A DNA stretch of 60,439 nt from contig JAKJFA010000003.1 of NCBI GenBank assembly GCA_022705135.1, forward strand, positions 29,710-90,148, in the 5' to 3' direction. Both the position numbers and the translations under genes were made by a program. The notes beneath the pieces are model-generated. The model was given only the letters and a program-made list of their open reading frames with translations. It ran no database searches and was not told the DNA's origin. Each line of letters opens with the position of its first letter. Position 1 is the first letter of the stretch. This DNA comes from Pseudomonadota bacterium (GTDB lineage Bacteria; Pseudomonadota; Gammaproteobacteria; Burkholderiales; Rhodocyclaceae). Of this stretch, positions 4,231 to 57,497 are shown piece by piece.

Positions 4231-5897
4231 GACGACGACTCCGGGTGGTCGACGCCCGCCTGGGCACGGCGGGCGTCGATTTCGGCGATTTCCTGCTGCT
4301 GGCCGGCGGTCAGCGCCTCGGTATTCTTCGGCTGGGCAGCAGCGCGCTGGGCCTGGGCGCGTTCCTGTGCCGCGGCGATGGCGGCTTTTTTGGCCGCTTC
4401 CGGGTCAAGCGCGCCGAGGTTGGCCGCTTCCGCCGCTTTTTTGGCGGCCTGCGCGGCGGCGGCTTTGGCCAGTTTTTCGGCCTTCTCGGCCTTTTCGCGT
4501 TCTTCGCGCTTCTGCTTGGCCTGGAAACGGTCGCGCGCCTGGTCGGCGGCTTTTTTCTCGCGTTCGCGCGCCCAGATTTCGCTCTTGGCAAAGAGGAAAT
4601 AGTGCACCAGCGGGATATGCGACGAGCAGACGTAGGCGCAGGAACCGCATTCGATGCAGTCGAACAGGTGGTATTCCTGCGCCTTGCCGAAATTCCGGGC
4701 GCGGGCAAAGCGATAGAGTTCGTAGGGTTGCAGGTCCTGCGGGCAGACGCGGGCGCATTCGCCGCAGCGGATGCAGGGCATTTCCGGCGCACGGGGCGGG
4801 AACAGGTCGGGCGAATGGGCGATCAGGCAGTTGGTGCTCTTGACGATGGGGGCGGCAGTGTCCGGCGCCAGAAAGCCCATCATCGGGCCGCCAACCAGAA
4901 TGCCGTCGGTGTCGGGCTTCGGTTCGGCGAGCGCGATCAGTTCCTCGATCGGCGTGCCGAACAGCGCTTCGACATTGTGGGCGCGGCCGACGTTGCCGGT
5001 CAGCGTGACAACGCGCGAAATCATCGGTTCGCCGAAGCATACGGCCCGCCAGGCACTGTAGGCGGTGGCGACGTTGAAACACTGGGCACCGAGGTCGGTC
5101 GAGCGACGGGATACCGGAACTTCCTTGCCGGTCAGCACGCGGATCAATTGCTTGGCGCAGCCAGCCGGGTACAGGGTCGGCACCGGCACGACCTCGAAAG
5201 GTTCGCCCACCGCCTGGACGGCGGCGCGCATCGCGGCGATGGCTTCCGGCTTGTTATCCTCGATGGCGATCATCACCCGCTTGGGCTGCATCAGATCGCG
5301 GAAAATGGCGGCGCCGCGGACGATGCCCTCGGCGCGCTCGCGCATGATCATGTCGTCGCAAGTCATGTAGGGCTCGCACTCGCCGCCGTTGATGACCAGG
5401 TCTTCCATCGGGAATTTGGCGGATGGGGTTAACTTGCCGTGGGTTGGGAAGACGGCGCCACCGAGGCCGACGATACCGGCTTGCTGGATCAGCCTTCGGA
5501 TGTCGTCGGGGGTGAGCGATGCGTAATCGGGCGGGTTGCGCTCACTCCACTCTTCCTTGCCATCGACGTCGATGAGGACGGAAAGTGCACTGAGGCCGGA
5601 GGGGTGCGGCTGCACATGCAGGGCGATGTCGCGCACGATGCCGGAAGTGGGGGCATGCACGGTGGAGGAAATCCAGCCGTCAGCGGCGCCGATCAGCTGG
5701 CCTTTCAGCACGCGGTCGCCGGGTTTGACCAAGGGGCGCGGCGTGCCGCCGATACTCTGGTGCAGCGGCACGATCAGCCGTTGCGGCAAGGGCGCAATGG
5801 CGATCGGTTCTCTGGTTGATTGTTCCTTGTAGCCGGGCGGATGCACGCCGCCGTTGAAGCGGTAGAGCGGGCGGTCGGACTTGAGTTTGCTCATCAT
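4227..5897 (-). CDS. rsxC: Electron transport complex subunit RsxC/RnfC
   Basis: NADH-facing peripheral subunit that binds FMN and two [4Fe-4S] clusters, 556 residues. The cluster motifs are [17 protein letters not shown] and [16 protein letters not shown] in the C-terminal third. After them comes an Ala/Lys/Glu-rich tail of about 110 residues, probably a coiled coil, as in many proteobacterial RsxC. The open frame continues upstream to 6314, but that stretch is rsxB read in another frame. I chose the ATG at 5897, whose ATGA overlaps the rsxB stop; a second ATG follows directly at 5894. Confidence 0.95.
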
Positions 5898-6448
5898 GCC
5901 GCCTTCCTCGTGGCTTCCTGTAGCTGAACGACGGGGTATTTCCATTTCCAGGTGTCGATGCTTTCCGGAATGGGCTGCATGCTGATGCATTCGACCGGGC
6001 AGGACGGCAGGCAGAGTTCGCAGCCGGTACAGACCGAGGCGACGACGGTATGCATCTGTTTGGCTGCGCCAACGATGGCATCGACCGGACAGGCCTGAAT
6101 GCACAGCGTGCAGCCGATGCAGATGTTTTCGTCGATGCGGGCGACTTGCGGCGGCCGTTCTTCGGCATCGAGCGGCTTGGCTTCGCGGCCGAGCAGGTCG
6201 GCCAGTTTGGCAACGCCTTCTTCGCCGCCGGGCGGGCACAGGTTGATGTCGGCCTCGCCCTTGGCGATGGCCTCGGCGTAGGGGCGGCATCCCGGATAAC
6301 CGCACTGGCCACATTGGGTCTGTGGCAACAGGGCGTCGATCTTGTCGACCAGCGGGTCGCCTTCGACCTTGAAACGGATCGAGGCGTAACCGAGGACGGC
6401 GCCGAGGAAGACGGCGATCAAGGCCATGATGGCAATGGCGGCGAGCAT
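5894..6448 (-). CDS. rsxB: Electron transport complex subunit RsxB/RnfB (ferredoxin)
   Basis: Polyferredoxin subunit that receives or delivers electrons at the ferredoxin end of Rnf. It has 184 residues. An N-terminal membrane anchor (about 3-24) precedes an Fe-S domain with CGQCGYPGC (about 47-55) and a distal Cys in INLCPPGG. Two further [4Fe-4S] motifs follow, [15 protein letters not shown] and [16 protein letters not shown]. Its stop overlaps the rsxC start. It is separated from rsxA by a 147-bp repeat element instead of the usual short junction, and no strong ribosome-binding site is visible ahead of it. Confidence 0.95.
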
Positions 6449-6451
6449 TTC

Positions 6452-6596
6452 AGCGCCTGTGGAAAAATTCGTCGCGAGCGCAGGCGAGACTAGGCGCGAG
6501 CGAACGAAATGCGAGACATATCAAAAGGATAGGCGATGCGTTGAGGCTTGCGAGCAACGCTGTATCGGCAAGCGCAGCAGAATTTTCGCAGGCGCT
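6452..6596. repeat. MITE-like repeat, about 145 bp, between rsxA and rsxB
   Basis: Imperfect terminal inverted repeats bound the element: AGCGCCTGTGGAAAAATTC at 6452-6470 and GAATTTTCGCAGGCGCT at 6580-6596. It fills the whole spacer between rsxA and rsxB. Its core, read on the minus strand, contains TCGCCTAT...CTTTTGATATGTCTCG, closely matching the core of the element at 39676-39816 (TCGCCTAT...CCTTGATATGTCTCG). The two are therefore copies of one family. No protein-coding capacity is evident. Confidence 0.75.
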
Positions 6597-29893: not shown

Positions 29894-30994
29894 ATGAGCG
29901 TACCGGTAATGCCGGGAGTCACGGCAAAGACAATCACGACGAAAAGACTGACCACGCGCGTCTTGTTTGCAGGACCGGAAGACGGAATTCCTGTTTTACT
30001 TTTGCACGGCAACATGTCGTCTGCAACCTGGTGGGAGGATAACCTGCTGCTGCTGCCGGAAGGGTACCGGGCCATTGCCCCGGATCAGCGCGGCTTTGGC
30101 GATGCCGACCCCGACAAGCACATCGACGCCACCCGCGGCTTGGCTGATCTCGCCGATGACGCCGCCGCGCTCCTGGATGAACTGGGTTATGCGCAGGCGC
30201 ATGTGGTCGGCAATTCCCTGGGCGGGAATGTTGTTTACTGGCTGATGGCCGACCATCCCGAGCGGCTGAAGTCCGTGTTTTTCGCCGGTTGCGGTTCTCC
30301 CTACGGATTCCGCGGAACCAAGGATGAAATCGGCACGCCCTGCTATGACGATTATGCTGGCGCCAGCGGCGCGCTGGTCAATCCTGGCACGGTCAAGTCG
30401 ATTAAGGAAAGGGATACCAGCCCGGACAACCCCTTGGGATTGAGGGCAGCCTTGAATGCCCTGGTATTCAACTCCAAACTGGTGCGGCCTGAACGGGAAA
30501 TGTCGCTGCTGCTGGCCAGCATGGCCATTCATGTCGGCGAAAAGGATTTCCCCGGCGATGGCATCAAATCGCCCAACTGGCCGTATTGGACGGCGGGCAA
30601 CTGGGGTTCGGTCAATGCCCTTTCTCCCAAGTACCATGTCGACGTGAACAAGATTTACCAGGCCAAAAACAAAGTGCCTGTTCTCTGGGCCAGGGCGGAA
30701 AAGGACATTGCCGTGTCCGATCAATCGGGCTCTGATCTGGCGATTCTGGGCCAAAAAGGCCTGATTCCCGGTTATCCCGGCGCGGAGATTTTCCCGCCGC
30801 AGCCGATGGAAAAACAGATCCGCCGCTTTTTGAATGATTACGCCAAGGCCGGCGGCACCTATCAGGAAGTCTTGTTCAAGGGGCTCGGTCATGCCTTCTT
30901 CGCTGAACAGCCGCTGCGTTTCAACGCCGTGCTCAACAACTTCATCCTCTCGGTCGATAAAACGGTCGAGTTGATGGGCGGCGCCGGGAAGTGA
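29894..30994 (+). CDS. Alpha/beta hydrolase
   Basis: A 366-residue hydrolase, longer than its neighbours owing to a lid of about 80 residues. LLLHGNMSSATWWEDNLLLL, IAPDQRGFGDAD, nucleophile elbow GNSLGGNVV (about 110-118), acid in LWARAEKDIAVSD and His in FKGLGHAFFAEQP. No signal peptide. AGAAGGAGGCAGT precedes the ATG. It is followed by a hairpin terminator (31043-31105), so it is a separate unit upstream of the sigma-54 activator. The substrate is unknown. Confidence 0.85.
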   Translation: MSVPVMPGVTAKTITTKRLTTRVLFAGPEDGIPVLLLHGNMSSATWWEDNLLLLPEGYRAIAPDQRGFGDADPDKHIDATRGLADLADDAAALLDELGYAQAHVVGNSLGGNVVYWLMADHPERLKSVFFAGCGSPYGFRGTKDEIGTPCYDDYAGASGALVNPGTVKSIKERDTSPDNPLGLRAALNALVFNSKLVRPEREMSLLLASMAIHVGEKDFPGDGIKSPNWPYWTAGNWGSVNALSPKYHVDVNKIYQAKNKVPVLWARAEKDIAVSDQSGSDLAILGQKGLIPGYPGAEIFPPQPMEKQIRRFLNDYAKAGGTYQEVLFKGLGHAFFAEQPLRFNAVLNNFILSVDKTVELMGGAGK

Positions 30995-32883: not shown

Positions 32884-32899
32884 TGGCACACGGATTGCT
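32884..32899 (+). promoter_or_regulatory. Sigma-54 (-24/-12) promoter
   Basis: TGGCACACGGATTGCT matches TGGCAC-N5-TTGC, with GG at 32885-32886 and GC at 32897-32898 separated by the required ten bases. Transcription should begin near 32910, 30 bases before the first start codon (32940). The 143-bp gap between the activator gene and this site has room for upstream activator sites; GGAAT and ATTCC half-sites 11 bases apart lie near 32747-32767. Confidence 0.85.
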
Positions 32900-32939
32900 A
32901 AACCTCTTGGGGAAGATATGGTTCCAGGAGGGGCTTTTG

Positions 32940-33539
32940 ATGTTCGTCGATTGCAATGATGCGCCAGTGGTCCCGGATGCCATTGTGGCTCATATCGATT
33001 GTCTGGAGGGCGATGTCGACGAGGGTATGGTGGCGGCGTTGGCGCGTTGGCAGGCGTTTTGCCATGTGCTCGCCGAACGCTACGGATTCTGCCAGGTTTG
33101 GCTGAACCGGGTCGAAGCGGGTCATCGACTGCAGCCGATGATCGGCACCGGCGTGTTTCCCGTGCCCGGTTGCCCAGGTTCCTGTTCCGGCAATGCGCCG
33201 GTTGGATATTCGATCGTCCGCGATTTTTGTGAGGACGCCCTGTACCGGCTCTGGTACGGTCCTCATTTCAAGTGTGTGGCCTCCCGGAACCAAGCTGGCG
33301 GGGCCGCCTTCGCCTGCCGGTGGATGTCGCCGCAGGGAAGGCACTTCGCGCTGACCCTGCATGGCCCCTCGAAATACCGTCGTCCCGAACCCTCGCTGGT
33401 GGAGGAGCTGACCGCCACTTCGCGCTATCTCAAAGACCTGTTCGAAACCGGTTCGGTGACGCATTCGTCACCTCGTAGAAGGCCGTTGATTTGTGGTCTG
33501 CGCCCCATTTATCCGGAAGATCGCTATCCGCAGTATTAA
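32940..33539 (+). CDS. Unknown protein, first gene of the sigma-54 operon
   Basis: A 199-residue soluble protein that I do not recognise. It is Cys-rich in the middle (VPGCPGSCSGN near 76-86, DFCEDALY, HFKCVASRN) and has conserved-looking aromatic segments (YGFCQVWLNRVE, LYRLWYGPHFK). There is no signal peptide. The frame opens at 32883 inside the promoter, so I chose the ATG at 32940, preceded by AGGAGGGG. A sensory (GAF-like) role is possible, because it precedes an HD-GYP gene by 25 bases, but this is not demonstrated. Confidence 0.7.
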   Translation: MFVDCNDAPVVPDAIVAHIDCLEGDVDEGMVAALARWQAFCHVLAERYGFCQVWLNRVEAGHRLQPMIGTGVFPVPGCPGSCSGNAPVGYSIVRDFCEDALYRLWYGPHFKCVASRNQAGGAAFACRWMSPQGRHFALTLHGPSKYRRPEPSLVEELTATSRYLKDLFETGSVTHSSPRRRPLICGLRPIYPEDRYPQY

Positions 33540-33564
33540 GTTAAGGCCAGGAGTGATTGTTGTC

Positions 33565-34227
33565 ATGGATCTTCAGAACTACCACGACATTGCGTCGGAC
33601 GACCCTTCCGAACTCTACGACGACGATTTTTTGGCCACCAGCTTCGACTGCGGTGTGGGCGAGGGAGGGAATAACAGCAGGGGCCGCAGGAAGGAATCGG
33701 GCAAGCATCTGTACCGCGTTTCCGAATACGCGCGCATCCTCGCCCTCAAATGTGGCCTGAACTTGACCGAAGCGAATCTGGTCAAGGAAGCATCCCGCTT
33801 CCACGACATTGGCGAGAGCGGGGTTTCCGGCGCCATCCTTAACAAGCCGGGAAAGCTCAATGCGGAAGAGTGGGAGCTGATGAAATCCCACACCAAGCTG
33901 GGGTATCAAATGCTGCGCGGTTCAAAAAACCCGGTGACCGAAGCCGGTTCGATCATTGCCCTGACCCACCACGAACGCTGGGACGGCAGCGGCTATCCGC
34001 ACGGGTTGTCGGGGAGCGCCATTCCGCTTTACGGCAGGATCGCCGCCCTGGCCGATGTGTTTGATTCCCTGACCTCGGATCGGCCTTATAAAAAGGCGGT
34101 ATCGCTGGAAGAAAGCTGCAGCTACATCTATAGCGAGCGCGGCAAGCATTTTGATCCGCATTTGGTGACGCAATTTCTTGAAAGCATGGAGCCCTTTTTT
34201 TGCATTCAAAGGGATTTTGCGGGTTGA
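33565..34227 (+). CDS. HD-GYP domain phosphodiesterase
   Basis: A 220-residue protein consisting almost only of an HD-GYP domain, which hydrolyses cyclic di-GMP. Metal-binding HD in SRFHDIGESG, then ILNKPGKLNAEEWELMKSHT, HHERWDGSGYPHGL (HHE plus the GYP motif) and ALADVFDSLTSDRPYKKA. The roughly 50-residue N-terminus is acidic and short, with no receiver domain. The start is the ATG at 33565 (AGGAG at 33549); a GTG at 33553 is possible. It is second in the sigma-54 operon, linking its expression to c-di-GMP turnover. Confidence 0.92.
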   Translation: MDLQNYHDIASDDPSELYDDDFLATSFDCGVGEGGNNSRGRRKESGKHLYRVSEYARILALKCGLNLTEANLVKEASRFHDIGESGVSGAILNKPGKLNAEEWELMKSHTKLGYQMLRGSKNPVTEAGSIIALTHHERWDGSGYPHGLSGSAIPLYGRIAALADVFDSLTSDRPYKKAVSLEESCSYIYSERGKHFDPHLVTQFLESMEPFFCIQRDFAG

Positions 34228-34289
34228 ATCGTGCGCTGACCGCCGGATAAGCCGGATCGGGCGTCGGAAGTTTTTGGGGAGGAGTGAAG

Positions 34290-35165
34290 GTGCCATTTGT
34301 CGATGCCAAAGGGATCCAATTGCATTATGTCGAGCATGGTCAGGGCGATCACGTTGTCTTGTATGTGCACGGCAATCTGGGGTGCGTGGATTGGATGAAT
34401 CTGGTTTGGCCGCATCTGCCCAAAGATCTGCGGGTTATCGCCATTGACTGGCGGGGGTGCGGGCTCTCCGACAAGCCTGCGCTGGAAGCAGCCTATGCCA
34501 ACTACAGTATGCCTCAGCACGCCGAGGACATGATCCATGCGCTGGATGCGCTTGGAATCGGGTCATGCGGACTGTGCGGCCATTCCACTGGCGGCATCAT
34601 CGCGCTCTACATGCTGGACAAGCAGCCAGCGCGTTTTACGCGTTTTTTGGGGCTTGATCCGATCGGCCCGATGGGGATCGCCTTGGCGGAAGACAAAGTG
34701 GCCCTCTTTTCGCAAATGAAGGCGGACCGCGAATTTACCTTCCGCGTTCTGGCCACCGCTGCCGCCTCGCTCTTCGATGTGGCCACCCTTGGCACGGAGC
34801 GGCCTGCTTTTGCGCCGGGGACGAGCGACGAGCAAAAGGCCTTATACGAACATCTGGTCGATATGACGCGCCTGCTTTCGGACGGCATCTGGTTCGGAAC
34901 CCCACACAATCTGGCGCACGAACACGAGGACGGGATGTTGCGGGCGCGCCAGAAACAGATCGCCCACCCCACCAAGATTCTTTGGGGCGAGCTCGATTTC
35001 TGGATTCCACGCGAGCACATGGAGGAAATGGCGGAGCAGATGCCGAATTGCAGCCTCGAGATCATCCCAGGCGTCGGCCACTCGATGAATGTCGAGCAAC
35101 CCGCTGAATTCGCCCGCAGATTCACGGCCTTCTTCCAGCCTGCAAATGGGGGCTCCAGCGTTTAG
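34290..35165 (+). CDS. Alpha/beta hydrolase (sigma-54 operon)
   Basis: A 291-residue hydrolase: VLYVHGNLGCVDWMNLVWPHL, VIAIDWRGCGLSDKP, nucleophile elbow GHSTGGIIALYML (about 93-105), acid in ILWGELDFWIPREH and His in IPGVGHSMNVEQP. Of two in-frame GTG codons, 34290 lies six bases after GGAGGA and is preferred to 34284. No signal peptide, so it acts in the cytoplasm, in contrast to the two exported hydrolases that follow. Confidence 0.87.
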   Translation: MPFVDAKGIQLHYVEHGQGDHVVLYVHGNLGCVDWMNLVWPHLPKDLRVIAIDWRGCGLSDKPALEAAYANYSMPQHAEDMIHALDALGIGSCGLCGHSTGGIIALYMLDKQPARFTRFLGLDPIGPMGIALAEDKVALFSQMKADREFTFRVLATAAASLFDVATLGTERPAFAPGTSDEQKALYEHLVDMTRLLSDGIWFGTPHNLAHEHEDGMLRARQKQIAHPTKILWGELDFWIPREHMEEMAEQMPNCSLEIIPGVGHSMNVEQPAEFARRFTAFFQPANGGSSV

Positions 35166-35232
35166 CCAAGACTTGAGAGCCACAGTCTCTGCCGATTTTT
35201 CGATTCATCATTTGACCACTTTAGGAGAGAAC

Positions 35233-37725
35233 ATGTACAAGCTTTGCCTCTCTCGTGCCTTCGTATCCGCCCTCGTGGCGGGTACGTTTTTTCTTGGCAC
35301 GACCTTTGCGCAGGCGCAGCCAGCCGGCAAGGAACTGACCCCGCGCGCGGCGACCGCATCTTTGGCGTCGCTGAAGAAATACCATGAGATCAAGAACTTC
35401 CGTATCGGCGGCAAGTACGATTTAGACCGGCCGGATTCCTGGGCGAACGGCGGCGAGGGCGGCGTCACGCTCGAATCCCTGGGCGCCGGGCCGCTGCGTC
35501 TTTCCTATATCGCCGTCGGCACGCCGAAGAGGAATGCCAAGGGCGAAATCACCAACGCCATCATCATCAGCAGCTACTATTCCGGCGACGCTTCGGCCAT
35601 GTACAGCTTTTGGCAGGAAGGACAACCCTTCACCAAGCTGCCTTTTTCCGCCGCCCATGTGGGCAAGGGTAAGCTGTTCGACACCGACCGCTACTACGTC
35701 ATTTACCTCGATGCCCTTGGCCTTTGGGGCGCCAGCAAGCCGAGCGACGGGCTGGGAATGAAATTTCCGCAATACAACATGTTTGATCTGGTGCAAGCCA
35801 ATTACCGCCTGCTGCGCGATCATCTGAAAGTGGCTCAGGTCCAATTGGCCACGGGCGTTTCCATGGGGGGTACCCAGACCTATGTGTGGGGCCTGCTGCA
35901 TTCGCGCGATGGCTTCGTCAAAGCGATCATGCCGATTGGTGGCAAGACCCAGTCGGCTTACGGCGAAGACCCGGTGGGTGACTGGATTTTTCAACTGATG
36001 ACGGCGGCCATCGAATCCGACCCGGCCTGGCGTGAAACCAAGGGCAATTATTACCACCTGCCGAAGGAAAAACACCCGAATCAGGGCGTGGCGTTCGGCT
36101 GGTCCATGCTCAGCCATACCGGCTTCGGCCTCGACTTCCGGGCCAATTCGCCTTGGGCAGCGGTCGAGAAAGAAGTCTTCTACTGGGACGCCAAAGGCAA
36201 TGAGGGCGCCAGCCAGAAGGCCAAGGCCGCCATTTTTGATGCGGTGGACCTGATCTATCGCAACCGGGCCGGCGGCCCGCCCGTCAGCGTCCAGGACAGG
36301 CTCGGCCAGATCAAGGCCCGCACGCTGGTCCTGCATGTCGAAAACGACCAGTGGCTGGTATCGGATTTTGCCCGCTCCTCGGCGCAAAAAATCCCGGGCG
36401 CCCAGTTTGCCTCGTTTGGCGACAACTACGCGCACTACGCTGTATTCAAGGCGGCCGAGACACTTAAAAACAACCCGCTGGTCAATACCTTCCTGCGCGA
36501 TATCGGCCTTATCGCCGACCCCGACCTGAAATACGTCGCCAGGAACTACCGCAGCCCCCGCGTGGACATGAAGGCCGAAGCCGGCAAGTCCTTCTGGAAG
36601 GACAAGATGGTCTACCCCTTCCCGGTCAAGTACGCCAAGGCCAAGGACAGCAAGGGCATCACCTGGAACGTTGCCTACATGGATGAGTACAACGGTGTTG
36701 AAAAGAACCCGCCGGTGCTGGTCATCGTCCATGGCAAGGGCGCTTTCGGCGCGCACTATGGCTATCTGATGAAGTACGCGCTGGAACGTGGTTTGCGCGT
36801 TGTCGTTCCCGATATTCCGCACTATGGCTTGTCCGGATCGAGCAATCTCGACCAGTCGAATGCCCGGACCCTGAGCCAGGTGCGTGACGTGTTGCACGAT
36901 GTGGTGGTGCGGCAACTGGGGATCAAGAGCGCCCATTACCACGGCCATTCGCTTGGCGGTCAGGTCATCCTCGGCTATGCCCTGAGATATCCCGCTGCCG
37001 TCAGAAGCCTCATCCTCGAAGCGCCGGCCGGGACTGAACAGGCGACCCGGGTAACGCCGGGATTGAGCCTTTCCCTGCATGAGAAATCAGTGGGCGCCGA
37101 TATGGCGACCTGGAAATCGGCGTGGGGCGCCATGCTGGATCAGGAAATGGGCAAAAATCCGCAACAAATCCGCGACTTTTTCGAGTGGAAGGGCGCCTCC
37201 GGCTACTTCAAGGTCAACAGCGAGTACGCCAGACTGCACACCGACCAGCGCATCGCCATCCTGGATTATCCGAAGGAACGCGATCAGTACATCACCTCCT
37301 TCATCTACGACGTCTGGGCCATGACCAACGAAAACGTCAAGGAAGACCCGAACAGCCTGTACAAGCAACTGCCCAAGCTCAGGATGCCGATCTTCCTGCA
37401 GTTCGGAGCGCAGGAACCCTTCATTCCGATCACGATGGTCAGCGGTTTGAAGAGCCTCGCCCGCGATGTGATCGTGCCCTTCAAGGACATGATGACCAAA
37501 GCAGGCAATCCGCCCTTTATCAAGATTTATCCGGGCGCTGGCCATTTCATCCATACCGATCTTCCGTATGAATACGCCAAGGATACCGTCGACTTCGTCC
37601 GCAAGGGCAAGGCCGAAAATGTCAGCAATGCTGCGATCATCAGCATGATCGAAGGCGCCGCCGTGGCCAAGCCCGCTGCCGCGCCGACCCAAACCGCCGC
37701 CAAACCGGGCGGCCTGTCCAAGTGA
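35233..37725 (+). CDS. Exported double-domain alpha/beta hydrolase
   Basis: An 830-residue protein with a signal peptide (about 1-28, cleavage near AQA). The N-terminal domain (about 45-430) is MetX-like: FDTDRYYVIYLDALGLWG, the elbow TGVSMGGTQ with Ser210, Asp372 in VENDQWLV and His401 in NYAHYAVF. The C-terminal domain (about 450-795) is a second hydrolase: VIVHGKGAFGAHYG, elbow HGHSLGGQ with Ser573, Glu728 in FGAQEPFIP and His771 in PGAGHFIHTD. The tail ends AAKPGGLSK, as in the next gene. Both triads look intact. The ATG at 35233 follows AGGAGAGAAC; the frame opens earlier inside the upstream gene. Confidence 0.9.
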   Translation: MYKLCLSRAFVSALVAGTFFLGTTFAQAQPAGKELTPRAATASLASLKKYHEIKNFRIGGKYDLDRPDSWANGGEGGVTLESLGAGPLRLSYIAVGTPKRNAKGEITNAIIISSYYSGDASAMYSFWQEGQPFTKLPFSAAHVGKGKLFDTDRYYVIYLDALGLWGASKPSDGLGMKFPQYNMFDLVQANYRLLRDHLKVAQVQLATGVSMGGTQTYVWGLLHSRDGFVKAIMPIGGKTQSAYGEDPVGDWIFQLMTAAIESDPAWRETKGNYYHLPKEKHPNQGVAFGWSMLSHTGFGLDFRANSPWAAVEKEVFYWDAKGNEGASQKAKAAIFDAVDLIYRNRAGGPPVSVQDRLGQIKARTLVLHVENDQWLVSDFARSSAQKIPGAQFASFGDNYAHYAVFKAAETLKNNPLVNTFLRDIGLIADPDLKYVARNYRSPRVDMKAEAGKSFWKDKMVYPFPVKYAKAKDSKGITWNVAYMDEYNGVEKNPPVLVIVHGKGAFGAHYGYLMKYALERGLRVVVPDIPHYGLSGSSNLDQSNARTLSQVRDVLHDVVVRQLGIKSAHYHGHSLGGQVILGYALRYPAAVRSLILEAPAGTEQATRVTPGLSLSLHEKSVGADMATWKSAWGAMLDQEMGKNPQQIRDFFEWKGASGYFKVNSEYARLHTDQRIAILDYPKERDQYITSFIYDVWAMTNENVKEDPNSLYKQLPKLRMPIFLQFGAQEPFIPITMVSGLKSLARDVIVPFKDMMTKAGNPPFIKIYPGAGHFIHTDLPYEYAKDTVDFVRKGKAENVSNAAIISMIEGAAVAKPAAAPTQTAAKPGGLSK

Positions 37726-37753
37726 TCGCGGCCCACGAACCAAGGAGCATATT

Positions 37754-39079
37754 GTGAAAAGAGAATTGATGCGTCATCTGCTGGTTGCCGTTGCGGCGCT
37801 GGCATTCACTGCGGCCGCGCAGGGCGGTGAAATGAACATTACCGGCACCTGCGCGCTGCCGGTCAAGGATATCTGCGACCTCAAGCAATCCTACGACATC
37901 AGCGGCTTCAGGCTGGGCGGCAAGTACGATCTCGATAAGCCGGAGAGTTGGCAATTCGGCGGTGAGGGCGGCACTACCCTGGAATCATTGGGGATGCCGC
38001 CGCTGCGCGTGTCGTACATCGCCGTCGGGACACCTCGATACAACGACCGGGGTGAAATCAACAACGCCATCGTCATCAACAGCTATTACTCCGGTGACGC
38101 GGCCAACATGTACAACTTCTGGGTCAAGGGGCATGCTCTGAGCGGTGAACCGCTCATCGGCAAGGGCAGGCTCTTCGATACCGACAAGTACTATATCGTC
38201 ATGGTCGACGCCATCGGCCTGTGGGGCGCCAGCAAACCCAGCAACGGGCTGGGGCTGAAATTCCCGCAGTACAGCAATTTTGACCTGGTGCAAGCCAACT
38301 ACCGCTTGCTGCGCGACAAGCTCAATGTCGGGCAGGTCGAACTGGTGACCGGTGTATCGATGGGCGGAACGCAGTCTTGGGTATGGGGCGTCATGCACTC
38401 GGCGTCCGGCTTTGTCAAGGCGATCATGCCCATCGGCGGGACCACCGGCTCCGACAGCGCTGGCGATCCGCTGACCAAATGGGTGTTCGGCCTGATGACC
38501 TCGGCGATCAAGAGCGATCCAGTCTGGCAGAAGACCAATGGCGATTATTACCATTTGCCGAAGGAGCAACATCCGCTGATGGGTGTCGCTTTTGGCTGGT
38601 CAGTGCTCAATCATACCGGCTTCGATTTTGCCTTCCGTGCCTCGCAGCCGATGGGCACCGTCGAACCTCTGATCTTCGACTGGGAACCGAAGGGTAAGCA
38701 GGCCTCCGGCGTCATTGCCCAGGCCAAGAATTTCGATGCAGTTGACCTGGTGTATCGGAACAATGCCGGCGACCTCCACAATGTCAACAAGGAGTTGGGA
38801 CGCATCAAGGCCCGCACCTTGGTCATCCACGTCGAAAACGACCAGTGGCTGGTGATGTCGAAGGCGAAAGCCGCTGCTGCCAAGGTTCCGGGCGCCGGAT
38901 TTGCGTCCTTCCGCGACAAGTTCGCCCACTATGCGGTCTTTAAGGCGCCGAATGAACTGAAGGCGACGATTGCCCCCTTTATCGCCGACAAATGGACGGC
39001 GGGCGCCACTGTGGCCAGCGTCGCGCCGATGGCGGCCGCATCCGCACCCGCCGCCAAGCCGGCCGGACTTTCCAAGTAA
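37754..39079 (+). CDS. Exported MetX-like alpha/beta hydrolase
   Basis: A 441-residue paralogue of the N-terminal half of the preceding protein. Signal peptide at about 1-24 (LLVAVAALAFTAAAQG); Cys at 33 and 41 follow in the mature part. Shared blocks are FRLGGKYDLDKPESW, VSYIAVGTPRYN, FDTDKYYIVMVDAIGLWGAS, TGVSMGGTQSWVWGV (Ser202), VENDQWLV (Asp) and FAHYAVF (His). The C-terminal tail is Ala/Pro-rich and ends AAKPAGLSK. The GTG start at 37754 follows CAAGGAGCATATT. It is last in the sigma-54 operon, before a strong terminator. Confidence 0.9.
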   Translation: MKRELMRHLLVAVAALAFTAAAQGGEMNITGTCALPVKDICDLKQSYDISGFRLGGKYDLDKPESWQFGGEGGTTLESLGMPPLRVSYIAVGTPRYNDRGEINNAIVINSYYSGDAANMYNFWVKGHALSGEPLIGKGRLFDTDKYYIVMVDAIGLWGASKPSNGLGLKFPQYSNFDLVQANYRLLRDKLNVGQVELVTGVSMGGTQSWVWGVMHSASGFVKAIMPIGGTTGSDSAGDPLTKWVFGLMTSAIKSDPVWQKTNGDYYHLPKEQHPLMGVAFGWSVLNHTGFDFAFRASQPMGTVEPLIFDWEPKGKQASGVIAQAKNFDAVDLVYRNNAGDLHNVNKELGRIKARTLVIHVENDQWLVMSKAKAAAAKVPGAGFASFRDKFAHYAVFKAPNELKATIAPFIADKWTAGATVASVAPMAAASAPAAKPAGLSK

Positions 39080-39109
39080 CAGGCCGGACTGTTGCAGTTA
39101 CGGAGAGAA

Positions 39110-39142
39110 AGCGGCCCCGCAGCCGGCGGGGCCGCTTTTTTT
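39110..39142 (+). terminator. Rho-independent terminator of the sigma-54 operon
   Basis: AGCGGCCCCGC (39110-39120), loop AGCCG, GCGGGGCCGCT (39126-39136), then a run of T to 39142. The 11-bp perfect stem and U-tract make a strong intrinsic terminator 30 bp after the last gene. Confidence 0.93.
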
Positions 39143-39153
39143 CGATCGGTGGC

Positions 39154-51495: not shown

Positions 51496-52824
51496 ATGAC
51501 CTGCACGTATGACTACAGTCACAAATTGATCAGCATCGAAGAAGCGCTGTCGAAAATCCATTCGGACGACTTTGTGATTTCGGCGCTGGCCGGCGCTGAA
51601 CCGAAAGGCATCCTGGAGCAGTTGCACACCATTGCGCCGCGTGTCAGGAACGTCAGCGTGGCGACCTGTCTGCCCCTGCACAAAGGCCAGTGGTACACCG
51701 ACCCGGCGATGAAGGGGCATTTCATGCACCGCGCCTGGTTCTATACCGTCGGTACCCGCGCCGCCGCCGGGCTGGGCACCTGTTCCTGCGTTCCGTGCCA
51801 CCTGAGTACCGCTGGCCACGATGCGTTGAAGCGCAAGAAGCCCAATGTCTTTCTCGGCACCTGCACGCCGCCGGATCGCTTCGGCTTCATTTCCTTGTCG
51901 CTTTCCGCCACTTATGAGCGCGAGATGATGGAAGCGGCTGACCTCGTCATTCTGGAAATGAATGGAGAGACGCCTTGGACTTACGGCGACACGGTGATCC
52001 ACCTCGACGACGTCGATTTCCTGGTCAAAAACGACTATGCCCTGCCGCAACTGCCCATCGTCGACTCGGATGATCGTGACCGCAAGATCGGCGCCTATAT
52101 CGGTGACCTGATCGAGGACGGCTCCAGTATCCAGCTTGGCATCGGCGGCATTCCCAACGCCGTTGCCGGCGAACTGCTGCACAAGAAGGGTTTGTCGATC
52201 CATACCGAGATGTTCACCGACGGCATGCTGGACCTCTACGAGGCTGGCGCCATCGCCAAATCGGCGCCGGGAACCGATCCGCGCATGCTGGCCGGCAAGA
52301 TGGTCGCCACCTTCGCGCTCGGCACGCAGCGTCTCTACGACTTCATCCACAACAACCCGGCCGTCGCCATCATGCGCGGTTCCTGGGTGAACAACCCCTA
52401 CGTGATCCGGCACAACAAGAAACAGGTGTCGATCAACACCACCCTCGAAGTCGATCTGACCGGCCAGGTGTGTTCCGAATCGATCGGCCACAAGCAGTTT
52501 TCCGGTACCGGCGGTCAGGCCGACACGGCGATTGGCGCGCAGATGTCGGAAGGCGGCAAACCCTTCATCGCCCTCTATTCGACCGCCCAGGTCAAGCAGC
52601 CGGACGGCACGCGCAAGACCGTCTCGAAAATCACCCCGACCCTGACCCCGGGCGCGGTGGTGACGCTGCACCGTTCCAATGTCGATTACGTCGTCACCGA
52701 ATATGGCGCCGTCCGCTTGAAAGGCGCTTCGGTCGAGGAACGCGCCAGTCTGCTCATCTCGATCGCGCACCCGGATTTCCGCGCCCAGTTGCAGGAAGAA
52801 GCCGAAAAACTCAATTTCCTGTGA
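51496..52824 (+). CDS. Acetyl-CoA hydrolase/CoA-transferase (4-hydroxybutyrate CoA-transferase-like)
   Basis: A 442-residue enzyme of the acetyl-CoA hydrolase/transferase family, which moves CoA between acetyl-CoA and another carboxylic acid. Signs are IQLGIGGIPNAVAGELLHKK, TEMFTDGMLDLYEAGAI, VSINTTLEVDLTGQVCSESIG (region of the catalytic Glu), GTGGQADTAIGAQ and VVTEYGAVRLKGASVEERA. It follows the flavodoxin-like gene by 46 bp. Its acceptor is unknown, but the MaoC-type gene next door suggests an enoyl- or hydroxyacyl-CoA further down the route. Confidence 0.9.
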   Translation: MTCTYDYSHKLISIEEALSKIHSDDFVISALAGAEPKGILEQLHTIAPRVRNVSVATCLPLHKGQWYTDPAMKGHFMHRAWFYTVGTRAAAGLGTCSCVPCHLSTAGHDALKRKKPNVFLGTCTPPDRFGFISLSLSATYEREMMEAADLVILEMNGETPWTYGDTVIHLDDVDFLVKNDYALPQLPIVDSDDRDRKIGAYIGDLIEDGSSIQLGIGGIPNAVAGELLHKKGLSIHTEMFTDGMLDLYEAGAIAKSAPGTDPRMLAGKMVATFALGTQRLYDFIHNNPAVAIMRGSWVNNPYVIRHNKKQVSINTTLEVDLTGQVCSESIGHKQFSGTGGQADTAIGAQMSEGGKPFIALYSTAQVKQPDGTRKTVSKITPTLTPGAVVTLHRSNVDYVVTEYGAVRLKGASVEERASLLISIAHPDFRAQLQEEAEKLNFL

Positions 52825-52872
52825 CCCGAACCCCTTCGTCCATGACCCATGAACTCTTCAGGAGACTTGAAA

Positions 52873-53781
52873 ATGAACTTTAATGTCGGTGACACCGCCA
52901 GCTTCCGCCGCATTCTGACGCAAGAAGACTTTAACCGCTTTGCCGCTCTGAGCTGGGACGACAACCCCATCCACTGCGACCCGGTTTTTGCCGCCAAGAG
53001 CCATTTTGGCGGCACGGTGTCGCACGGCATGCTGCTCTATAGTGTTTTGTCCAAGGGGCTTTCAGAACTGATCCCGGGGCCGGGCGCCATCCAACTGGAA
53101 CAGGAAATGATGCACCCCAATGGCACCTATACCGGTGAAGAATGTGTCTGGACCATAACGGTCAAGGCCGTCAATCCGGACGGTACCCTGGAACTGACGA
53201 CCGTCATCAGCAAGGCTTCCGATCCCGCCAACATCAAGCACCAGGGTCGCGCCCGCGTGGCACCGTATGGCGTAAAGCCCGAGTTTACGAATACTCCGGC
53301 TACCCCTGCCATCCAGCAAGAAGGGGATGACTATCTGTATGGCCTTCGTCCCGGTATGTTCAAAGAAAAGAAACGTATCTTCTCAGCCGCCGATCTGGCC
53401 GAATACGGCAATCTTTCCGGCGACCGCAACCCCATTTTCCGCGAGAAGGAATTCGCACAGGACGCTGGTTTCAAGGAGGTCATTGTTCCGTGGCCGCTGC
53501 TGGCCGGCATGTTCTCCGACATGCTGGGCACCGACCTGCCTGGCCGCGGCACGGGCTGGATGAAACAAAAACTGATCTACAAGAGCGCTGCCTATCCCGG
53601 CGAAGAACTTACGGCACGAGTGGAAATCATCCGTCTGCGCGCCGACAAGGAACTGGTTAATTTGCGCAGCACCATCGTCGGCGCCGATGGCCGCTTGATC
53701 TGCGACGGCGAGTCGCTGGTTCTGGTGCGCAATCTGGAAAACAAGGACGACAAGAGCGCGCAATTTCCCCTGGCTGCCTGA
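52873..53781 (+). CDS. Double-hotdog MaoC-like dehydratase/hydratase
   Basis: A 302-residue protein with two MaoC hotdog domains. The N-terminal one carries the complete hydratase-2 motif WDDNPIHCDPVFAAKSHFGGTVSHGML (about 29-55; Asp and His catalytic). The C-terminal one (from about 170) has only GDRNPIFREKEFAQDAG, with no His at the catalytic place, so it is probably structural. Expected reaction: (R)-specific hydration or dehydration of an acyl-CoA. AGGAGACTTGAAA precedes the ATG at 52873. It begins 48 bp after the CoA-transferase. Confidence 0.88.
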   Translation: MNFNVGDTASFRRILTQEDFNRFAALSWDDNPIHCDPVFAAKSHFGGTVSHGMLLYSVLSKGLSELIPGPGAIQLEQEMMHPNGTYTGEECVWTITVKAVNPDGTLELTTVISKASDPANIKHQGRARVAPYGVKPEFTNTPATPAIQQEGDDYLYGLRPGMFKEKKRIFSAADLAEYGNLSGDRNPIFREKEFAQDAGFKEVIVPWPLLAGMFSDMLGTDLPGRGTGWMKQKLIYKSAAYPGEELTARVEIIRLRADKELVNLRSTIVGADGRLICDGESLVLVRNLENKDDKSAQFPLAA

Positions 53782-53932
53782 TTGCGCTGGCCGGATGCGG
53801 TGCGTCATGGCGCCGCATCACGGTCCGAAGAGTTTGAACCCCTTGGAACTTGCAGAAAGGCCCATGGGGCAAACCCCGGCACTTTGCGTGCCTGTAGAAG
53901 TTGATGGATCCACTCACCAAAGGAGTCAAATA

Positions 53933-55150
53933 ATGCATTTGAGACATCTCACCCTCGCGGCAGCCTTGGCCGCCGCATTGTCCAGCACCGCGCTGGCCCA
54001 GAGCAAAGAAATCAAGATCGCCCACATCATCGGCAGGTCAGGCCCGCTGGAGCCTTTTGCCACCCAGGCCAGCCGCGGCTTGAAGATGGGTTTTGAGTAT
54101 GCGACCGGCGGCACCATGGAAGTAGCCGGCAAGAAAATCGTCATCCTTGACAAGGATACCCAGTTGAAGGCTGATCTGGGCAAGACCCTGTTGCAGGCGG
54201 CCTACAAGGACGAGGGGGTAGATATTGCGGTTGGCCCGACCAGTTCCGCCGTGGCGCTGGCCATGATCCAGGTGGCGCGCGAAAACAAGAAGCTGCTCCT
54301 CATCGACCAGGCGGCGGCTGAAAATCTGACCGGCAGCAAGGGCAGCCGCTATGTCTTCCGGGTCGGACGCAGCACCGAACAGGACGCCTACGCCAATGCC
54401 TTCGTCTTCGGCAAGCCGGGCTACTTTATCGCCACGCTGGCGCCGGACTACTCTTTCGGCCGCGAAGGCGTCGCCGGCTTCAAGGAAGCGCTGAAGGGAA
54501 CAAAGGCCAAGATCGTGGACGAGGTCTACGCGCCGGCCGGAACGGCGGATTTCACGCCCTACACCACACGTTTGATCAATGCGCTGAAGGATCAGCCCGG
54601 CCGCAAGATTATTTGGTACATGTGGGCAGGTGCCGGCCAGCCGCTCAAGGTTCTGGATCTGAATCCGCAGCGATATGGTATTGAAATGGTGACGGGCGGT
54701 GGAACGGTGTACGCCTTTATGGCCGGGTCGCGGCCGATGGCGGGCAACGATTCGGCAACTTCGTACTACTGGAGATGTCCGAAGAACACTGCCAATGACT
54801 GGATGGTTCAGGAGCATCTGAAGCGCTTCAATTCACACCCCGACTTCTTTACCGCCAATGGTTTTATGACGGCGCAAACGATTGTCGAGCTGCTGAAGAA
54901 GACCAACGGCAAGACGGACGACACTGAGTTGCTCATCAAGACCCTGAAGACGGTCTCGATCGACTCCGTCAAGGGCAAGGCCTACTTTACCAAGGACAGC
55001 CAGCAGTTGATGCAGAACATGTATCAGATCAAGTTCACCCTCAATCCGGAAATGGATAAGACGATCACCAAGGGCGTGGACTTGGAGTGTCTGCGTGAAA
55101 TCAAGGCCGAAGAATTGAATCTTCCCCCCCAAAAAATGCCGGCCAACTGA
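53933..55150 (+). CDS. ABC-transporter substrate-binding protein, branched-chain amino acid type (orphan)
   Basis: A 405-residue periplasmic binding protein of the LivJ/Peripla_BP_6 family. Signal peptide at about 1-22 (LTLAAALAAALSSTALA). EIKIAHIIGRSGPLEPFATQ, VDIAVGPTSSAVALAMIQVA and the FGREGVAGFKEAL segment are family-typical. Such family members often bind aromatic or aliphatic acids, not amino acids. No permease or ATPase genes of an ABC system are adjacent. AAAGGAGTCAAATA precedes the ATG; a terminator follows. Confidence 0.9.
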   Translation: MHLRHLTLAAALAAALSSTALAQSKEIKIAHIIGRSGPLEPFATQASRGLKMGFEYATGGTMEVAGKKIVILDKDTQLKADLGKTLLQAAYKDEGVDIAVGPTSSAVALAMIQVARENKKLLLIDQAAAENLTGSKGSRYVFRVGRSTEQDAYANAFVFGKPGYFIATLAPDYSFGREGVAGFKEALKGTKAKIVDEVYAPAGTADFTPYTTRLINALKDQPGRKIIWYMWAGAGQPLKVLDLNPQRYGIEMVTGGGTVYAFMAGSRPMAGNDSATSYYWRCPKNTANDWMVQEHLKRFNSHPDFFTANGFMTAQTIVELLKKTNGKTDDTELLIKTLKTVSIDSVKGKAYFTKDSQQLMQNMYQIKFTLNPEMDKTITKGVDLECLREIKAEELNLPPQKMPAN

Positions 55151-55171
55151 ACTCCTCTAGCGCCATCTTGG

Positions 55172-55200
55172 GCCCGCCTTTTGTTCCGGCGGGCTTTTTT
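55172..55200 (+). terminator. Rho-independent terminator after the binding-protein gene
   Basis: GCCCGCC (55172-55178), nine-base loop, GGCGGGC (55188-55194), followed by six T. It should end or attenuate transcription before the twin hydrolase genes. Confidence 0.88.
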
Positions 55201-55276
55201 CCCTTGCCGTGGCAGGGGATGAGAGGTCAATACCAAATGACTGTTCAATCCACAGAAGGACAAAAGAGGAGAGAAG

Positions 55277-56362
55277 ATGAAACCACAACGCGAAGTGTTT
55301 CACCTGCCCAGTTATACGACCACTTCCGGCCGCGCCCTCAAGGACGTCCGGGTGGGCTATGAAACCTACGGCACGCTCAATGCGGCGCGCGACAATGCCA
55401 TCCTGATCTGCCATTACTTCACCGGCAACGCCCATGCCGCCGGGCGCTACGAGGACAGCGATCCGCTGCCCGGCTGGTGGGACGGCATCATCGGCCCCGG
55501 CAAGGCCCTCGATACCGACCGCTATTTTGTCATTTGCACCGATGTCCTGTGTTGCATCCGGATGTTTGACGGCCACGCGGTCACTACCGGGCCGTCCACG
55601 ATCAACCCGGAAACCGGCAAACCCTACGGTCTCGATTTTCCCATTCCCAGCATCAGCGATTTTGTCCATGTGCAAAAGGCGCTGCTCGACCATCTCGGCA
55701 TCGAGCGCCTGGTCGCCGTGGCCGGGCCTTCCTCCGGCTCGATGCAGGCTATCCAGTGGGCGGTTGAGTATCCGCACATGGTGCCGCGCGTGCTGGCGGG
55801 ACTGAAGGCCCATCCCTATTCGCGTTGCATCGTCGAGTGCTGGGCCGCCCCCATCCAGGTCGATGCCGCCTGGAAAAACGGCGCCTACGACCCGAAGGAA
55901 CAGCCGATGACGGGTCTCATCGAAACCATCCGCCTGACCTTCGTCACTGCCGTCAGCCATGCTTTTGTCGCCAAGGCGTATGGCGATGCCTGGGCCGATC
56001 CGCAGCGCGACCCGCTCGCGTCGCTCGACAACGAATACCGGGCGCACGCCAGTATCGGCACGATCGCTTCCGTGGGCGCCGTCCAGTGCGACGCCAACCA
56101 CTTCCTCTACATGGTGCGCGCCTGCAACGCCTACGATGTCACGGCGCGAATCGGCGAGGCGAAGGCCAAGTTCCTGTTCCTGCCGGCCGAGTCGGACATT
56201 CTGTTCCTGCCCTTTATGTCGGAGGAAGCCGTCGCGCAGATCCGCGCCGCCGGGGGAAGGGCCGAACTGGTGACGCTCAAGGGAAGCGGCGGCCATCTCG
56301 ACGGACTCAACGTTATCGCCCAGGCGCGCCAACCCATCGTCGATTTCCTGAACAGTAATTAA
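55277..56362 (+). CDS. MetX-like alpha/beta hydrolase, copy 1
   Basis: A 361-residue cytoplasmic protein related to homoserine O-acetyltransferase: VRVGYETYGTLNAARDNAILICH, GWWDGIIGPGKALDTDRYFVI, TTGPSTINPETGKPYGLDFP and DHLGIERLVAVAGPSSGSMQAIQWAVEYP. The nucleophile elbow is GPSSGS (Ser152) instead of the GGSMGG of true MetX; Asp in LPAESDILF and His in GSGGHLDGLN complete a triad. With a changed elbow and no methionine genes nearby, I expect another esterase, acyltransferase or C-C hydrolase. GAGGAGAGAAG precedes the ATG. A tandem paralogue follows. Confidence 0.87.
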   Translation: MKPQREVFHLPSYTTTSGRALKDVRVGYETYGTLNAARDNAILICHYFTGNAHAAGRYEDSDPLPGWWDGIIGPGKALDTDRYFVICTDVLCCIRMFDGHAVTTGPSTINPETGKPYGLDFPIPSISDFVHVQKALLDHLGIERLVAVAGPSSGSMQAIQWAVEYPHMVPRVLAGLKAHPYSRCIVECWAAPIQVDAAWKNGAYDPKEQPMTGLIETIRLTFVTAVSHAFVAKAYGDAWADPQRDPLASLDNEYRAHASIGTIASVGAVQCDANHFLYMVRACNAYDVTARIGEAKAKFLFLPAESDILFLPFMSEEAVAQIRAAGGRAELVTLKGSGGHLDGLNVIAQARQPIVDFLNSN

Positions 56363-56399
56363 TGCCCTTCGCCGGGCAGATAAAGCAAAGGAGCACACC

Positions 56400-57497
56400 A
56401 TGACGCCGCAACGACAGGTTTTTACCTTGCCCAGCTACACCATGACCAACGGCCGCACCATCAAGGAGGTCCGTGTCGGCTTTGAAACCTACGGCACCCT
56501 CAATGCCGCGCGCGACAATGCCATCATGATTTGCCATTACTTCTCCGGCACGGCGCACGCCGCCGGCCGCTATCAGGAAAGCGATCCGCTGCCTGGCTGG
56601 TGGGATGCCGCCATCGGTCCGGGCAAGGCCATCGATACCGACCGCTATTTCGTGATCTGCAGCGACAGCCTGTGCTGCGTCAGGGCTTTTGACGGGCAGG
56701 TCGTCACCACCGGCCCGGCCAGCATCAATCCGGACACCGGCAAACCCTATGGACTCGATTTTCCGGTGACTTCCGTCGCCGATATGGTGCATGTGCAAAA
56801 GGCGCTGGTCGATCATCTCGGGATCACGCAACTGGCCGCCGTTGCCGGTCCTTCCGCAGGTTCGGTCATGGCTGTGCAATGGGCCGTCGAGTACCCTGAA
56901 ATGGTCAGGCGCGTCATCGCCGTCATCTGTCCCGGTCTGGTCTTTACGGCCTACCAGCGCAGCGTGATGGAATCCTGGTGCGCGCCGATCCTGCTCGACC
57001 CGGCCTGGAAGGAGGGCGCCTACGATCTCAAGCAACAGCCGGCGGCCGGCATGACCGAAAGTTTTCGCCAGGTCTTCCTCTGGGCCATCAGCCCACCCTG
57101 GCTGGAACGGGCGATCGGCGATGGCTGGGCCGACCCCGAGCGCGATCCGGCCGTTTCGATCCGTCACCAGTTCAAGTCGTATGCCGGGGTTGGCGCGCTG
57201 GCCGCGATGGGGACGCCGTTCTGCGACGCCAACCATATCCTCTATATGGCACGCGCGGCGGGTATCTATGACGCCAAATCGAAAATCGCCCAGGCCAAGG
57301 CCAAGTTCCTGTTCATCCCGGCCGAATCCGACCTGTTGTCGCTGCCGTCGCGCTCACAAGAGGCGGTTGAGGACATCCGCGCCGCTGGCGGCCGTGCCGA
57401 GCTGTTCATGTTGAAAGGAAACGGCGGCCATTTCGACGGACTCAACCTGATCGGCCAGGCGCGCGACGTGATCCAGGATTTTCTGGCGAAAGACTGA
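56400..57497 (+). CDS. MetX-like alpha/beta hydrolase, copy 2
   Basis: A 365-residue paralogue of the preceding gene, very similar along its length: VRVGFETYGTLNAARDNAIMI, DAAIGPGKAIDTDRYFVI, TTGPASINPDTGKPYGLDF and VAGPSAGSVMAVQWAVEYP (Ser152), Asp in IPAESDLLS and His in GNGGHFDGLN. The region after the elbow (about 165-215, VIAVICPGLVFTAYQRSVMES) is the most divergent part, so the two copies may differ in substrate. It begins 37 bp after copy 1 with GCAAAGGAGCACACC upstream. Confidence 0.87.
   Translation: MTPQRQVFTLPSYTMTNGRTIKEVRVGFETYGTLNAARDNAIMICHYFSGTAHAAGRYQESDPLPGWWDAAIGPGKAIDTDRYFVICSDSLCCVRAFDGQVVTTGPASINPDTGKPYGLDFPVTSVADMVHVQKALVDHLGITQLAAVAGPSAGSVMAVQWAVEYPEMVRRVIAVICPGLVFTAYQRSVMESWCAPILLDPAWKEGAYDLKQQPAAGMTESFRQVFLWAISPPWLERAIGDGWADPERDPAVSIRHQFKSYAGVGALAAMGTPFCDANHILYMARAAGIYDAKSKIAQAKAKFLFIPAESDLLSLPSRSQEAVEDIRAAGGRAELFMLKGNGGHFDGLNLIGQARDVIQDFLAKD

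Follow-up and report, generated by a model that had tools for sequence, protein, structure and literature searches.

A putative 3-hydroxybutyrate-responsive sigma-54 operon joined to a conserved module of alpha/beta hydrolases in a Rhodocyclaceae genome

The window analysed here, a stretch of 60,439 nucleotides (positions 29710-90148) of contig JAKJFA010000003.1 from a Rhodocyclaceae bacterium whose draft genome is 2.2 Mb in size and 90% complete, contains a gene for a sigma-54 enhancer-binding protein (EBP) followed by a -24/-12 promoter-like site, five closely spaced genes and an intrinsic terminator. The five genes encode, in order, a cysteine-rich protein (the orphan), a stand-alone HD-GYP protein and three alpha/beta hydrolases, here termed C, A and B. 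We consider it reasonably probable (about 0.6) that this is an HbcR-like sigma-54 operon that responds to 3-hydroxybutyrate (3HB) and serves in the scavenging of 3HB oligomers or esters, a compound class that we favour because gene neighbourhoods on the side of the hydrolase module and on that of the regulator both lead to it. The composition is that of a known type of switch joined to a conserved hydrolase module that has no description in the literature searched, a local gene related to cyclic di-GMP (c-di-GMP) and an unexplained C-terminal tail. The original prediction knew of no described system of this composition, and our literature search likewise turned up no recognised description of the operon; the accessible portions of PMC10482368, PMC13390443 and PMC7204398 do not mention the hydrolase module.

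Gene neighbourhoods of the module and of the regulator

The A-B-C set is conserved as a module across Alpha-, Beta- and Gammaproteobacteria. An alignment of six sequences, used to scan named genomes, recovered 30 loci, including L023 (genome G062) and L035 (genome G035), from hosts that include Dechloromonas, Accumulibacter, Ramlibacter, Bradyrhizobium, Amaricoccus, Thiohalocapsa and Halochromatium, and their genes were called and clustered with a simple purpose-made caller; a scan of the genome contigs with the single A sequence gave no match. B follows A in 22 of the 30 loci, starts at the contig end in one (L036), is absent after A in six (L025 and five Bradyrhizobium loci) and is untestable in L040, whose contig ends in A. 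C is present in 25 loci (with a fragment in L042), either adjoining A or some kilobases away, and overlaps B by 4 nt in L038, L048 and L049. Frequent companions are a second hydrolase, D (24/30, mostly divergent from A), a 204-residue protein, E (23/30; the member in L030 falls under every Pfam cut-off), and a family of OprD-type porins (11/30, assigned by Pfam on one member). The window's genome also has D-E pairs elsewhere (L052 7567-9341 and L053 8700-10296), one of which adjoins a gene that appears FabH-like by eye.

Near-full-length A occurs in three of 249 genomes of the family (G062, G035 and the window's own) and in one of four genomes of the genus; among 369 genomes of the class it was found, at E 1e-100, in its own genome only, and the module is therefore sparse. 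On plasmids A matched 128 records, each at less than 60% identity and none reaching 80% coverage. A tree built from 25 A proteins places the row from the window, on a long branch (0.76), with Bradyrhizobium and Acetobacteraceae rows (99/99) and not with Azonexaceae, although the place of so long a row is unsure. In an Azonexus draft (L045 1883-4538) A is broken over three frames and B is intact, which may reflect assembly error or decay. The conserved neighbourhood by which the original prediction was to be judged exists for A-B-C, but the EBP, the orphan and the HD-GYP protein were seen to accompany the module only here; the 30 other module loci, several of them short contigs, yielded no relative of the EBP or of the orphan.

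Genes of 3HB metabolism adjoin the module at several loci. In L040 a 3HB dehydrogenase gene (bdh; TIGR01963, 347.4 bits against a cut-off of 307.05), genes for the A and B subunits of a 3-oxoacid CoA-transferase (scoA, TIGR02429, 211.8 against 128.5; scoB, TIGR02428, 296.3 against 243.55), C and A form a single run in that order, all on one strand. The five Bradyrhizobium loci carry scoB-scoA-E-D divergent from A-C (subunit B was checked in L029), L024 has a 3HB dehydrogenase gene (366.4 bits) 3.6 kb from C, and a Phasin_2 gene lies 252 bp past B in L035. The short-chain dehydrogenase/reductase (SDR) adjoining C in L038 falls under the 3HB dehydrogenase cut-off. Curated models were applied to a few module neighbours only.

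The second line of evidence concerns the regulator. A GA(F/Y)TGA loop is the motif of sigma-54 enhancer-binding proteins, and the EBP, in which it reads GAYTGA, belongs to this group; its PAS_4 match lies barely over the Pfam cut-off. Related proteins on plasmids number 818 records at 1e-60; among the 15 examined of the 30 listed, six of which are unannotated, tblastn places a 3HB dehydrogenase within 7 kb of the EBP relative in eight, three of these (L099-L101) representing one Azospirillum locus type. For example, the annotated locus L093 encodes GntP and 3HB dehydrogenase divergently from the EBP relative, and in L092 the 3HB dehydrogenase is directly downstream. Within the family, 53 of 249 genomes, the window's own included, encode EBP kin at 1e-135. 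Around the best 20 of these besides the window's, four of which lie on stretches cut by contig ends, a CoA-transferase adjoins the EBP gene in 19, a GntP permease in 13 and a phasin in five (four confirmed by Pfam), and L135 encodes an acetoacetyl-CoA reductase that scores above its cut-off. Matches to 3HB dehydrogenase in seven of the 20 (28-38%) were judged to be SDR kin and left uncounted, the best model for that of L132 being FabG. In 13 of the 20, a -24/-12-like site scoring at least 13.8 lies no more than 450 nt from where the EBP match ends; such a site occurs in 3.05% of 2000 random 450-nt chunks.

The EBP thus resembles HbcR (PA2005-type) in its PAS-AAA+-Fis architecture, in having relatives beside genes of 3HB or acetoacetate metabolism (GntP, 3HB dehydrogenase or CoA-transferase; 8/15 plasmid and 19/20 family loci) and in the -24/-12-like site that often follows the EBP gene, a likeness drawn from neighbourhoods and not from HbcR's own sequence. 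PA2005 was reportedly the subject of work by Harris/Lundgren in 2015. The two differ in that the operon adjacent to the EBP encodes putatively exported hydrolases and an HD-GYP protein, in a window without 3HB dehydrogenase.

Several observations weigh against the 3HB interpretation. Most of the 30 module loci have no 3HB gene within the available flanks, and the EBP's own neighbours are neither 3HB dehydrogenase nor 3HB permease genes, the window as a whole lacking 3HB dehydrogenase, GntP and a FadX-like CoA-transferase. The annotated plasmid loci L087, L091, L094 and L097 show no 3HB gene by the EBP relative. A, B and C were not found near the best 20 EBP relatives of the family, so that the regulator and module lines meet only here. 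The loci had been read before the probes for CoA-transferase, GntP and phasin were picked, and the 37-47% identity of the EBP sensor to its plasmid kin (residues 30-190; L088, at 24% from a wrongly extracted frame, left out) is a sign of kinship, not proof of a common ligand. A, B and C match many alpha/beta hydrolases and reach no curated cut-off for a depolymerase or oligomer hydrolase. Finally, when 24 other loci were examined around the start of A, their sigma-54-like sites scored 13.8 at best (range 8-13.8), all 24 under the 15.2 of the window, and sigma-54 control of the module is hence not general.

It is possible, although clearly less probable, that the same regulated exported-hydrolase operon acts on another ester or on a lactone, in which case the 3HB links would reflect the general storage-polymer biology of the hosts. 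The breadth of the hydrolase matches, the many loci without 3HB dehydrogenase or scoAB in the available flanks and the best PDB match of C, an esterase, are consistent with this, whereas the bdh-scoA-scoB-C-A run, the Bradyrhizobium scoAB genes, the phasin and the EBP kin beside 3HB genes argue for 3HB. The substrate-responsive module of the original prediction can accordingly be given a probable compound class, 3HB oligomers or esters, through the two neighbourhood lines.

According to the accessible part of PMC10482368, HbcR is activated by (R)-3HB. If the operon responds to 3HB, the PAS domain of the EBP would sense 3HB or a close product and the promoter at 32884 would be opened; A and B, exported and sharing a C-terminal tag, would cut short 3HB oligomers or esters in the periplasm or outside the cell, and C would complete the breakdown in the cytoplasm. 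The 3HB released would then enter a 3HB dehydrogenase/CoA-transferase route encoded outside the window. The orphan and the HD-GYP protein would be a local addition, through which the same inducer would alter c-di-GMP. In line with the 3HB reading, the window's genome contains phaC as well as rpoN, and OprD-type porins accompany the module in 11 of the 30 loci.

Promoter, terminator and hydrolases

The site at 32884 has 10 bases between GG and GC and matches TGGCAC-N5-TTGCW perfectly, as no other site in the window does; with up to two mismatches allowed the window holds 40 matches where 38 are expected, so only the perfect match is meaningful. Its weighted score is 15.2 of 15.8, with an expectation of 0.067 per window over both strands (60 Markov-1 simulations), and it lies 144 nt past the EBP stop codon and ends 40 nt upstream of an ATG with an AGGAGG-type ribosome-binding site (RBS). 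Inverted repeats upstream of the promoter, checked as EBP sites, gave nothing convincing. The five genes are separated by gaps of 25, 56, 67 and 28 nt. The terminator (-35.6 kcal/mol, z -6.7) was equalled by none of 200 shuffles and was not listed on the + strand by a simple terminator scan. The genome encodes rpoN. Pfam matches, site score, gaps and folding bear out the predicted succession of EBP gene, exactly spaced -24/-12 site, five close genes and strong terminator, and the site and gene order support a sigma-54 operon for putatively exported hydrolases beside its likely activator (Table 1). Among the -24/-12-like sites of the window, the one ranking second, TGGCACGACCTTTGCG at 35295, falls inside the start of A, as does a 10-pair hairpin followed by TTTTTT (35262-35310).

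Table 1. Features of the operon and of the genes upstream of it, in window coordinates
Feature	Position	Strand	Basis
EBP (PAS-AAA+-Fis, HbcR-like)	31205 (or 31250, alternative ATG)-32740	+	PAS_4, Sigma54_activat and Fis helix-turn-helix (Pfam); neighbourhoods of relatives
-24/-12 site TGGCACACGGATTGCT	32884-32899	+	consensus match and weighted score
199-residue Cys-rich orphan protein	32940-33539	+	no Pfam or NCBIfam match
Stand-alone HD-GYP protein, HDIGE for HDIGK	33565-34227	+	HD_5; 4mcw at 1e-53; column counts
C, cytoplasmic alpha/beta hydrolase, partner of A/B	34284-35165	+	Abhydrolase_1; relatives in 25/30 loci, 49-53%
A, putatively exported (by eye) double hydrolase, MetX-like and BphD-like domains	35233-37725	+	domain matches
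KPGGLSK, C-terminal heptapeptide of A	37702-37722	+	alignment and tail counts
B, putatively exported (by eye) single MetX-like hydrolase, paralogue of A first domain	37754-39079	+	
KPAGLSK, C-terminal heptapeptide of B	39056-39076	+	alignment and tail counts
Intrinsic terminator	39103-39143	+	18-pair stem; folding statistics
Upstream alpha/beta hydrolase, possibly of the same set	28839 (or 28893)-29711	+	35-38% relatives near A in 6/30 loci, all betaproteobacterial
Upstream alpha/beta hydrolase	29894-30994	+	nearest curated model that of native short-chain-length polyhydroxyalkanoate (nPHAscl) depolymerase, far under cut-off

The two domains of A are MetX/PRK06489-like (residues ~88-410) and BphD-like (~440-795), and B is a paralogue 62% identical to the first of these; the hydrophobic N-termini of both proteins, judged by eye, suggest export. 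Candidate Ser/acid/His residues, assigned by motif, are at least 95% conserved in B and in both domains of A. The AlphaFold model of A is weak at residues 236-363, and the comparison with VIA-align covered residues 445-792 only. Against NF005071, a model of the MetX/E22 superfamily (PRK06489-like), the first domain of A scores 141.7 bits and B, over its whole length, 154.1; they depart from that superfamily in remaining under the model's cut-off of 305, in their apparent export, tandem arrangement and C-terminal tag, and in the fusion of A to a second hydrolase domain. With TIGR01392, A (74.9 bits) and B (65.4) likewise fall far short of the cut-off of 500 and do not qualify as MetX. Membership of this superfamily would be compatible with an acyltransferase role, the enzymes altering an envelope polymer instead of breaking down a nutrient, but we regard this as very unlikely in view of scores under all MetX cut-offs and catabolic neighbours at some module loci. 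Known 3HB-oligomer hydrolases and polyhydroxybutyrate depolymerases differ in turn, no Pfam family of this kind being matched and the curated models lying far under cut-off: C and the protein encoded at 29894 score 87.3 and 76.1 bits against the 300 required by NF050089, the model of intracellular short-chain-length polyhydroxyalkanoate depolymerase.

Stand-alone, exported-looking homologues (~34%) of the second domain of A are encoded in the window's own and same-genus genomes (L016 6950-8143, L018 7492-8985). The window also contains a second cluster of ester type (51496-57497), which encodes an acetyl-CoA hydrolase/transferase family protein, a protein that looks MaoC-like by eye, a LivK-like binding protein with 48% identity to one that lies beside an EBP and a 3HB dehydrogenase in Mariluticola and, at 55277 and 56400, two further MetX-like hydrolases.

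A and B share a C-terminal tail. All 25 A (double) and all 23 B (single) proteins end in G(L/F)xK, carried on linkers rich in Ala, Gly and Pro, and the fuller ending KPxG(L/F)xK is present in 16 and 20 of them, respectively; Thiohalocapsa and Halochromatium lack the KP pattern because their tails read QPAGLxK or RPAGLxK. Among 477 other proteins of the loci and the window five have the G(L/F)xK ending, all of them pieces of A, which leaves 0 of 472 unrelated proteins. At the DNA level, the pattern KPx-G-(L/F)-xK-stop gave 33 matches in 15 genomes and its reversed control two. By place or spacing, 26 of the 33 are the A and B of 13 genomes; five of the seven lying elsewhere were inspected, four being one shared protein that appears SDR-like by eye (KPRGLLK or KPRGLVK) and one a 20-letter frame. 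Across whole genomes the broad pattern thus also occurs outside A and B, yet the pair accounts for most of the matches.

The HD-GYP protein, the orphan and possible roles

The closest PDB entry to the HD-GYP protein is 4mcw (1e-53, 178 residues aligned), which we take to be PmGH. Residues were counted by column in the window protein and its 29 best-scoring relatives in the family, at metal-ligand positions assumed to correspond to those of PmGH. The HD/GYP motif is present and the common residue is found at every metal-ligand position, where the row of one relative departs at several. Two features set the protein apart from those of PmGH type: it has no N-terminal domain, being 220 residues long where the open frames of its relatives span 350-694, and residue 84 is E (HDIGE) where all 29 relatives have K. 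This lysine of HDxGK has a role in phosphate contact, and c-di-GMP hydrolysis is therefore predicted but in doubt.

In the 30 other module loci, several of them short contigs, HD-GYP genes turned up in L022 and L023 alone, at a distance of 8-9 kb from the module, and the idea that coupling to c-di-GMP is a conserved feature thus finds no support. Outside the window, c-di-GMP genes adjoin the module in two cases only: in Dechloromonas denitrificans C has a GAF-GGDEF gene as its neighbour (L023 4523-5530), and in L046 the neighbour of E is a 987-residue gene that matches GGDEF weakly (3568-6531). The orphan and the HD-GYP protein may nevertheless constitute a split sensor-phosphodiesterase tied to polymer attachment or dispersal, a doubtful proposal that would be compatible with a 3HB-responsive scavenging operon. 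The two genes come first in the operon, a sensor half encoded separately is plausible because the HD-GYP protein has 220 residues against at least 350 in the 29 relatives, and the D. denitrificans arrangement points the same way. The HDIGE change, the fact that neither gene was found in the module at other loci and the failure of the orphan to match significantly either the N-termini of HD-GYP kin or, with its poor model, any fold count against it.

The predicted gene set stands as regards the hydrolases, the HD-GYP protein and the orphan, with the qualifications that the HDxGK lysine is missing and that coding statistics for the orphan are weak. Its per-codon score is 0.06, compared with 0.16-0.32 for the EBP, HD-GYP, C, A and B genes, although it is the best of its own six frames and has a good RBS. 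Pfam and NCBIfam gave no match and the best PDB hit has an E value of 0.26. No credible relative was found in 248 other genomes of the family and 368 other genomes of the class, a match in G012 being rejected as out of frame with a stop and one in G258 for its three stops; tblastn against plasmids gave no match, and comparison with the N-terminal halves of HD-GYP kin none that was significant. A poor AlphaFold model (pLDDT 58) shows an order of helices and strands that looks GAF-like by eye, and Foldseek and Pfam returned nothing; the beta-lactamases listed by Foldseek from this model (template-modelling score at most 0.2) are meaningless.

More speculatively still, and in our view rather unlikely, the KPxG(L/F)xK-like peptide, on its low-complexity linker, could be a private docking or sorting tag by which a single partner, possibly the OprD-type porin or else a different envelope protein, keeps both hydrolases together as a surface or periplasmic 3HB-oligomer machine, with the same 3HB-driven sigma-54 promoter driving the altered HD-GYP protein and so tying c-di-GMP to the finding of polymer.

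The operon gives a group of unnamed, apparently exported alpha/beta hydrolases a testable substrate, suggests that an HbcR-like switch has acquired a new target and brings to light a short, conserved tag at the C-terminus of these proteins. If the 3HB explanation is correct, the module would provide a route by which members of communities rich in storage polymer may recycle each other's polymer fragments.

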